The position numbers and the translations under genes were made by a program. A stretch of 64,000 nucleotides of DNA from Bacteroidota bacterium (GTDB lineage Bacteria; Bacteroidota; Bacteroidia; Chitinophagales; Chitinophagaceae): assembly GCA_013288285.1 (NCBI GenBank), contig JABDCE010000004.1:1-64000 (forward strand), read 5' to 3'. The notes under the pieces were generated by a model. That model saw only the letters and a list, made by a program, of their open reading frames with translations, did not search any database and was not told where the DNA came from. Positions within the stretch are counted from its first letter, which is position 1. Each line of letters begins with the position of its first letter. Below, in pieces: positions 44,777 to 46,744 of this stretch.

Positions 44777-45874
44777 TTAGACGTGGCTAATAATATAGCT
44801 GGTACTTCTGCCGCCGGCGTTTTCTTTTTCTAAAATATTTTGTTCTATCAAATCCTGAATGTCACGCAATGCGGTATCATGTGAGCATTTGGCGATTTTG
44901 CCCCATTTTGCTGCGGTCATTTTTCCTTCGAAGCCATCGAGCATTTTGTTCAGCATTAATTTTTGCCTGATGTTTAATATTGCTTGTGCATAGGTATCCC
45001 AGAATTTTGCTTTTGCAAGAACAGTGGCCAATATATCATCTGTGGCGATCAACGCACGGTCTAAGCAATGCAAGAACCATTCCAGCCAGTTGGTAATATC
45101 TAATGTACCTCTTTGCGTTGCTTCAAGAATCAGATAATAAGAACTATGCTCTTTTTGTATTTGTGCAGACATACTATAAAAGCGCTGGGAACTTTCATCT
45201 GCACGTGCAAGCTGGAGGTCTGTAATCGCCCTGGCTATTCGTCCGTTGCCGTCATCGAACGGGTGAATGGTAATGAACCATAAATGTGCTATGGCGGCTT
45301 TTAAAACAGGGTCAATATTTTTTTCAGCATTGAACCACTCAAAAAATTTGTTCATTTCGCCATCAAGAAGCTCCGCGCCGGGTGCTTCGTAATGGATACG
45401 CTCGTTGCCGATGCCACCCGAAACAACATACATGGGTGAACGCCGCCAATTACCAACGGTTATTTTGTATATGCTACTAGGGCCTGTTGGGAACATAGCA
45501 GCATGCCAGCCGAACAAACGATCACTCTCAAGATCATTTTTAAATTTTTGAGTGGCATCCAACATCATTTCGACAACGCCATCAATGTATCTGTCTGATG
45601 GGACCAGGCCGACAATATCCATTCCTAAATGTCTTGCCAATGACGAGCGCACTTCTTCAGGGTTGAGTATCTCGCCTTCTATTTCATTTGACTTAAGAAT
45701 ATCGAGGGTTAATGTATTTAATGTAGCTTCTGCTCTCAGATTGAAGCCAAGCGCTTCCATTCTACCAACCAGCTTGCCTTGTTTATTCCTGATCGTTGCC
45801 AGTAAAGCAGATATACGTTCAACATCCCAATAGAATTTGGGCCATGAGGTATTTTGATGGATGTATATGCTCAT
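44777..45874 (-). CDS. Fic-family protein with N-terminal inhibitory motif and C-terminal winged-helix-like region
   Basis: Fic motif HPFDDGNGRIAR; N-terminal SNEIEG matches (S/T)xxxE(G/N); C-terminal MTAAKWGKIAKCSHDTALRDIQDLIEQNILEKENAGGRSTSYI. Confidence 0.93.
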   Translation of the reverse strand: MSIYIHQNTSWPKFYWDVERISALLATIRNKQGKLVGRMEALGFNLRAEATLNTLTLDILKSNEIEGEILNPEEVRSSLARHLGMDIVGLVPSDRYIDGVVEMMLDATQKFKNDLESDRLFGWHAAMFPTGPSSIYKITVGNWRRSPMYVVSGGIGNERIHYEAPGAELLDGEMNKFFEWFNAEKNIDPVLKAAIAHLWFITIHPFDDGNGRIARAITDLQLARADESSQRFYSMSAQIQKEHSSYYLILEATQRGTLDITNWLEWFLHCLDRALIATDDILATVLAKAKFWDTYAQAILNIRQKLMLNKMLDGFEGKMTAAKWGKIAKCSHDTALRDIQDLIEQNILEKENAGGRSTSYIISHV

Positions 45875-45976
45875 ATTCTACGCATATTTTGCGTCGATTA
45901 AAATGATTATTCTACGCAAAGTAACGGTATTCTACGCATATTATGCGTAGAATGGGCTATCTATTATACGCATAAT
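45875..45976. promoter_or_regulatory. four-copy operator-like repeat upstream of fic
   Basis: ATTCTACGCATA or close variants at 45875, 45909, 45929 and 45963; the third forms a perfect 12-1-12 palindrome at 45929-45953. Confidence 0.8.
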
Positions 45977-46141: not shown

Positions 46142-46744
46142 TTAGTTCACTAAAAAGACTTTTCTATCGTCTGGCAATAAAAATTTAGTAATAAAAGGCC
46201 CTTCCTCAATGAGCACTTTTATTTTTTCAGCGTTTTTGGGTATTTCAAAAACAAGTTGTGTTTCCAATGATTGATTTAATTCCAGTTTTTGATCTATAGG
46301 TACTTGCTGGCCAAATGTTTTTTCAAGCAGGTGTTGACCCTTGTCTGAAACTGACCAGTAACTCCCTTTTTCATCAATTATATGCACTCTTGGCTTCGAT
46401 GGCTTTTGAGCGATACCTCTTGCGTGGTTGCTGATTTTTATGTGCAGAATCACAAACTGTTCATTGGGGGCAAGTACCTCGTTGTCTTTTTCTATAGACG
46501 GTGTTTTTTCAATTTTTGTAACTGTGATGCACCAGTCATCAAAACAGATATCTGTTCCTAATGGAACTGCCACGTCATTGCTAATAAAATAGAAGAAGCA
46601 CCACAATGAAAAATATGATAACGTGACAAGCGCAATTGCTTTTAAAGTGGTAGCAATGTTTTTACGCTTTATCAGCTTTGCGGTCAGGTTTGCAAGCAAA
46701 ATAAGGAGGGTGACAATTGTTGCCAGGAAAAGTAAAGTTGCCAT
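46142..46744 (-). CDS. membrane-anchored protein, DUF4352-like extracytoplasmic domain
   Basis: Two N-terminal TM segments; ITVTKIEKTPSIEKDNEVLAPNEQFVILHIKISNHARG...LVFEIPKNAEKIKVLIEEG. Confidence 0.6.
   Translation of the reverse strand: MATLLFLATIVTLLILLANLTAKLIKRKNIATTLKAIALVTLSYFSLWCFFYFISNDVAVPLGTDICFDDWCITVTKIEKTPSIEKDNEVLAPNEQFVILHIKISNHARGIAQKPSKPRVHIIDEKGSYWSVSDKGQHLLEKTFGQQVPIDQKLELNQSLETQLVFEIPKNAEKIKVLIEEGPFITKFLLPDDRKVFLVN

Follow-up and report, generated by a model that had tools for sequence, protein, structure and literature searches.

The fic locus

The fic gene treated here lies in a 64,000 nt stretch (the window) of contig JABDCE010000004.1 from a bacterium of the Chitinophagaceae, and is directly preceded by an array of inverted and direct repeats. 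The array is very likely the operator of fic. Comparative sequence data suggest that it is bound by the Fic protein, in a negative autoregulation limited to this gene.

The start codon of fic is at positions 45874–45872 on the minus strand. The protein has DUF4172 at its N-terminus (Pfam PF13776, E 5.7e-32), a Fic domain (Pfam, E 2.3e-17) with the motif HPFDDGNGR, and a C-terminal winged helix-turn-helix (wHTH). The segment HPFDDGNGRIAR is found in the translation and its core is invariant across 45 orthologues. The class II inhibitory motif SNEIEG (residues 62–67) matches (S/T)xxxE(G/N), and E66 and G67 are also invariant in the 45 orthologues. The AlphaFold2 model has a mean pLDDT (predicted local distance difference test) of 90. 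In the model the wHTH consists of helices 302–312, 321–328 and 332–344 and strands 348–350 and 360–362, and the recognition helix has residue 332 in its first turn. The closest solved relative is CbFic2 (8cil, E 1e-93; Foldseek 8cil_A, template modelling (TM) score 0.90, 41% identity). A C-terminal winged-helix segment had been proposed in the initial annotation, and both the model (residues 302–362) and the match to 8cil agree with it. The PADLOC SoFic profile matches with E 1.3e-40; the score against the NCBIfam SoFic equivalog NF046030 is 57.5 bits, below the cut-off of 550. By domains, motifs and fold the protein is a class II DUF4172-Fic AMP transferase of the CbFic2 type, with enzymatic activity predicted.

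The repeat array

Six half-sites TGCGTAGAATA, as read on the fic strand and some of them imperfect, are present at positions 45874–45972 (Table 1). From distal to proximal they are f (+), e (-), d (+), c (+), b (-) and a (+). The array comprises the unit + (18 bp) - (16 bp) + in two copies, with a period of 54 bp. This two-copy organization had been missed in the initial annotation, although the copies themselves are as it described them: ATTCTACGCATA starts at 45875 and 45929, ATTCTACGCAAA at 45909 and ATTATACGCATA at 45963, with spacings of 34, 20 and 34 bp. The perfect 12-1-12 palindrome it reported at 45929–45953 is present. The copy that starts at 45875 abuts the ATG; its second arm (45888–45899) matches at 9 of 12 positions.

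Table 1. Positions in the window of fic, parts of its protein and the upstream repeats
Feature	Position	Strand	Remarks
fic gene	44777..45874	-	Open reading frame, 365 amino acids (aa); class II Fic: DUF4172, Fic domain and C-terminal wHTH
C-terminal wHTH of Fic, residues 302–362	44789..44971	-	AlphaFold2
Recognition helix HDTALRDIQDLIE, residues 332–344	44843..44881	-	Mutual information scan over 365 residues, tables, AlphaFold2
Half-site a, TGCGTAGAATA	45874..45884	-	Third (+) half-site of proximal unit; final base coincides with the A of the fic ATG
Half-site b, TGCGTCGATTA, imperfect	45890..45900	+	Minus member of putative proximal dimer site O2
Predicted weak -7 element TTTAATCG	45895..45902	-	Position of TATATTT of orthologues (promoter alignment)
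Half-site c, TGCGTAGAATA	45908..45918	-	First (+) half-site of proximal unit
Half-site d, TGCGTAGAATA	45928..45938	-	Third half-site of distal unit
Half-site e, TGCGTAGAATG	45944..45954	+	Minus member of putative distal dimer site O1
Half-site f, TGCGTATAATA	45962..45972	-	First half-site of distal unit
Putative proximal operator pair O2, TGCGTAGAATA-N7-TAATCGACGCA	45890..45918		Half-site starts 18 bp apart; one of two such sites in its own genome
Putative distal operator pair O1, TGCGTATAATA-N7-CATTCTACGCA	45944..45972		Exact match to pair pattern
Perfect 12-1-12 palindrome	45929..45953		Junction of d and e, 16-bp -/+ spacing

Five copies with at most one mismatch are found in the intergenic region, both strands included; the maximum in 3000 dinucleotide-preserving shuffles is 1. 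A scan of the whole window with three mismatches allowed gives 27 copies against 22 expected, which is not significant. What stands out beyond chance is the clustering of the half-sites and their conservation and not their number in the window.

Conservation and restriction to fic

Orthologues were gathered from the same order, phylum and class, from the class of locus L122 (a Cohaesibacter record) and from named GTDB genomes. In the first batches, the 123 distinct upstream regions have a mean of 4.36 half-sites, compared with 0.15 in shuffled sequences, and distances between sites peak at +/- 18 bp (170 counts), -/+ 16 or 15 bp (131) and +/+ 34 or 33 bp (130). In all batches, a +/- pair at 17–18 bp is present in 198 of 222 upstream regions of 150 bp. 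The same pair occurs in 0 of 222 dinucleotide shuffles and, among 4660 control windows taken from these loci, in 4. Part of these upstream regions served to train the position weight matrix used, which somewhat favours the orthologue rate; a scan for inverted repeats that uses no motif, described below, is independent of the matrix. Conservation of the repeats upstream of orthologues had been set as a check in the initial annotation, and these counts pass it strongly.

The layout found in the window, +-++-+, is shared by 34 of 206 loci; +-+- is seen in 51 and +-+ in 25. According to the record titles, the hosts include Chitinophagaceae, Sphingobacterium, Flavobacterium, Chryseobacterium, Verrucomicrobia, Omnitrophota, Spirochaetia and Alphaproteobacteria. 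A search for orthologues in viral contigs found none. The repeat family is conserved across Bacteroidota, Alphaproteobacteria and other phyla.

Pattern searches of the genome to which the window belongs (2.57 Mb, 58% complete) show the pair pattern, with up to three mismatches, only at O1 and O2, and no second cluster of half-sites elsewhere. Of 19 pair sites in ten other genomes, 16 are at fic, including all those with 0–1 mismatch. This near-complete confinement of the pair sites points to an operator that is local to fic. The three matches away from fic (G183:C1:3010847, G183:C1:3243675 and G174:C1:1640910) have two mismatches each and could be chance matches or minor extra targets.

Geometry of the probable dimer site

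The motif-free inverted-repeat scan was run on the orthologues and on a clade of 14 distant paralogues with 29–37% identity, 13 of which carry the helix SKATATRD or a close variant. It peaks at 18 bp in both groups. The half-site of the distant clade differs, TGAGCCGA(A/T)TA, but the +/- 18-bp inverted pair is retained. In loci L161–L173 the pair TGAGCCGA(A/T)TA-N7-inverse typically occurs twice, about 45 bp apart, with the second pair running into the ATG. The -/+ 16 arrangement is absent from the 14 loci. Since the distant paralogues keep the 18-bp pair and lack the 16-bp pair, the conserved dimer site is probably TGCGnnGAATA-N7-TATTCnnCGCA, i.e., O1 and O2. The perfect 12-1-12 palindrome was also considered as the dimer site and was set aside for the same reason. 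The initial annotation was correct in that the palindrome is present and perfect; as a site, it is probably the junction between the minus half-site of O1 and the extra half-site d.

Position relative to the promoter

An alignment of 180 Bacteroidota-type loci, anchored on the promoter-proximal + half-site, reveals a TATATT at offset 16 that lies in part beyond the half-site. The commonest distance from this half-site to the start codon is 44–45 bp, so that the third half-site falls at the ATG, between the expected transcription start and the start codon. Coverage of the start region, which the initial annotation took to be unusual, is thus common in the family. In 18 alphaproteobacterial loci CATAAT is found at an equal offset, together with a TTG-type -35 box, and represents a sigma70 promoter. 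There the first half-site falls within the 17-bp spacer of this promoter, which resembles the sigma70 consensus, e.g., in loci L249, L264 and L265. Overall, the operator overlaps the promoter and extends to the start codon.

Covariation of half-site and recognition helix

All 365 Fic residues were compared blindly with the operator bases by mutual information in 206 loci (effective number 139). The measure is the excess of raw mutual information over permutations; after average product correction, the top pairs were spurious and came from columns with almost no variation. Residue 332 ranks first for operator position 5 (0.395 bits above permutation, next best 0.27) and for position 6 (0.55 bits, next best 0.18). 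For position 4, residue 336 is first and residue 332 third; for position 2, residue 337 is third. The window Fic has His332, Leu336 and Arg337 at these covarying positions.

The base preferences differ with the residue. His332 is found with GTA in 6 of 7 loci, the class of the window (TGCGTA; Fisher 1.5e-8). Gln, Ala, Pro or Gly at position 332 mostly occurs with GGA, and Thr, Ser or Asn mostly with GGT or GGC. The pyrimidine to purine ratio at operator position 6 is 48:3 for Thr/Ser/Asn versus 22:98 for Gln/Ala/Pro/Gly (Fisher 1e-21); both Fisher values ignore relatedness. Lys332 with Ile or Val336 is mostly found with AAC, GAC or GTC, and Asn337 with T at position 2 (TTCGG) in 8 of 8 loci. 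Relatedness was taken into account by independent pairs on a tree built without the helix-turn-helix (HTH). The Thr/Ser/Asn contrast gives 12 independent supported pairs, of which about 8 are concordant and 0 opposite (median p 0.008). His332 has changed about five times on the tree; of 3 supported pairs, 2.8 are concordant and 0 opposite.

The rule was fixed before 101 new upstream regions were examined. All seven Lys loci and the single Asn337 locus are as predicted. The other scored loci have GG at positions 4–5 in 74 of 76 cases, the exceptions being L176 and the Arg-type locus L187; A occupies position 2 in two more loci of the Arg type. Another 17 loci, mostly of the distant paralogue clade, have a helix outside the search pattern and were left unscored. 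The covariation of half-site bases with residues 332, 336 and 337 lends support to the earlier suggestion that the protein may bind these sites, and Fic itself is very probably the autoregulator.

Relation to known Fic proteins

A Fic protein that regulates its own gene is already known. CccR from Yersinia pseudotuberculosis, which has a C-terminal HTH, represses its own gene by binding to inverted repeats in the promoter, as determined by lacZ fusion, electrophoretic mobility shift assay, footprinting and isothermal titration calorimetry (PMC9755527). CccR and the window Fic are both Fic enzymes with a C-terminal HTH, and both have inverted repeats in their own promoter that overlap promoter elements. 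However, the CccR operator is a single site, AGATAATCAT-N26-ATGATAATCT, with 10-bp arms and a 26-bp gap (PMC9755527), whereas here TGCGnnGAATA half-sites are 18 bp apart (7-bp gap) and form arrays of three to six that reach the ATG. Similarity between the proteins is low (Foldseek TM 0.53 and 17% identity to 7xux, which we infer from its title and date to be CccR). In the 18-bp pair the bases presumably read by residue 332 are 18–20 bp apart, or about 61–68 angstrom at 3.4 angstrom/bp, i.e., about two helical turns. In the apo crystal of CccR the recognition helices are separated by 70.2 angstrom (PMC9755527), a likeness that is only suggestive because the CccR footprint has its 26-bp gap.

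CbFic2 (CBU_0822, 8cil) forms a DUF4172-mediated dimer and has a wHTH at residues 300–367; DNA binding leads to a deAMPylating dimer (PMC10628234). Binding was tested with random DNA only, and the authors name the specific sequence as future work (PMC10628234). The domain order is the same as in the window Fic, but the recognition helix of CbFic2 is TSRTTAYREL, and another half-site would be expected for it. SoFic (SO_4266, PDB 3eqx), of a phage-defence family, is likewise class II with an N-terminal helix, a Fic domain and a C-terminal wHTH; the window Fic is far under the SoFic equivalog cut-off. DNA binding by SoFic has not been demonstrated, according to PMC10628234.

No description of the operator was found in the papers searched or in a 2026 AMPylation review, subscription papers and preprints being outside the scope of the search. 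The matches listed in a search with the half-site string (20 of 67) are unrelated papers only. What would be new is the specific operator that the CbFic2 study lacked.

Proposed mechanism and alternatives

In the proposed mechanism two Fic molecules, forming a dimer by way of the DUF4172 helix, would place their C-terminal recognition helices on inverted half-sites that start 18 bp apart. There would be two such dimer sites, O1 and O2, spaced 54 bp and each followed by an extra half-site (d and a, respectively). O2 would straddle the promoter spacer and the -7 box, and half-site a would cover the region from the transcription start to the ATG; occupancy of both is proposed to block transcription. 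The conserved array, its overlap with the promoter, its confinement to fic and its covariation with the recognition helix are seen in the sequences; physical binding by Fic, repression rather than activation, pairing as a dimer and cooperation of the two units are inferred.

Several observations weigh against this interpretation. The window -7 box TTTAATCG is a weak match and is not accompanied by a clear -33 box. The CccR footprint differs in geometry from the 18-bp spacing of the family. The His332 rule rests on seven loci (about five independent changes), L051 misfits it by its best unit, and there is no new His locus among the 101 out-of-sample regions, which thus do not cover the class of the window. 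Loci L033, L036 and L125, where Lys332 with Leu336 is found with GG or AG, are exceptions to the Lys332 preference. The link between Asn337 and TTCGG represents a single evolutionary event, and covariation at positions 2 and 4 partly follows clades.

An unrelated and unlinked transcription factor might bind the repeats, with the Fic HTH serving in substrate targeting or nonspecific DNA binding. CbFic2 does bind random DNA with nanomolar affinity, and a nonspecific role is one option proposed for it (PMC10628234). However, the operator bases change with residues 332, 336 and 337 of the adjoining Fic, repeatedly and independently, and the sites occur almost exclusively at fic. A separate factor would need to be co-inherited and to co-mutate across phyla, which makes this explanation very unlikely. 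A role in mRNA, with the start codon hidden in a hairpin of the 5' leader, is extremely improbable. The region does fold strongly as RNA (z -3.9), as would any inverted repeat, but by the position of the promoter only the last half-site would be transcribed. Direct repeats are also part of the array, its distal unit lies upstream of the promoter, and the identity of its bases tracks a protein recognition helix, which an RNA hairpin would not require.

Autoregulation of Fic and Doc toxins together with their antitoxins is a feature of type II modules. An unlinked or small antitoxin partner, and not Fic alone, could similarly be the DNA-binding corepressor here, and a small protein, AS1, is known to counteract EcSofic (PMC12249575). 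This is highly improbable since the DNA-reading residues would lie in Fic itself, fic carries its own inhibitory helix (SNEIEG), and there is no open reading frame of at least 60 aa in the 267-bp gap between fic and its upstream neighbour. A rather unlikely but more substantial alternative accepts recognition by Fic and differs in the details: activation or a switch, e.g., with an activating distal unit, or a dimer on the 12-1-12 palindrome. Many orthologues carry the -/+ 16 pair (the 131 counts given above), it is the most perfect palindrome of the window, and two units permit a more complex logic. On the other hand, half-sites over the promoter spacer, the -7 box and the start region are the usual arrangement for a repressor. 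The -/+ 16 pair puts the reading positions just 14 bp apart, and the distant clade maintains the +/- 18 pair without it.

Beyond repression of fic by its product, it is conceivable, though doubtful, that Fic proteins of this type form a phylum-crossing family with a self-encoded DNA code (residues 332, 336 and 337 versus operator positions 2 and 4–6), where operator occupancy couples repression to a non-AMPylating state. The operator-bound dimer would repress fic and be held in the deAMPylating state, and loss of the dimer or of operator contact would release both expression and enzyme activity at once. That operator binding is coupled to the state of the enzyme is speculation based on CbFic2.

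Implications and minor observations

A specific, conserved operator can now be proposed for hundreds of DUF4172-Fic genes, with a residue-to-base code that is testable. If the code is true, a His332Gln change would shift the preference from TGCGTAGAATA to TGCGGAGAATA (TGCGTA to TGCGGA). The operator would also provide a defined DNA ligand for asking if its binding switches between AMPylation and deAMPylation. The system may represent a compact, single-gene case of an enzyme as its own transcription factor, with many natural variants in specificity.

The upstream neighbour of fic (46142–46744, minus strand, the same as fic) encodes a 200 aa protein with a match to DUF4352 and has no evident link to fic.

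Some rare helices are found with rare half-sites: TKMTATRD with TGTTACGAATA, CPAITASRD with TGATRTGAATA, SPSTAARA with TGACACGATTA, HRDTALRD with TACGGC, and SLPTAQRD with TGAGGCGAATA. These pairs are from loci L236, L237, L230, L174, L193, L213 and L266, and they suggest that the code extends further.
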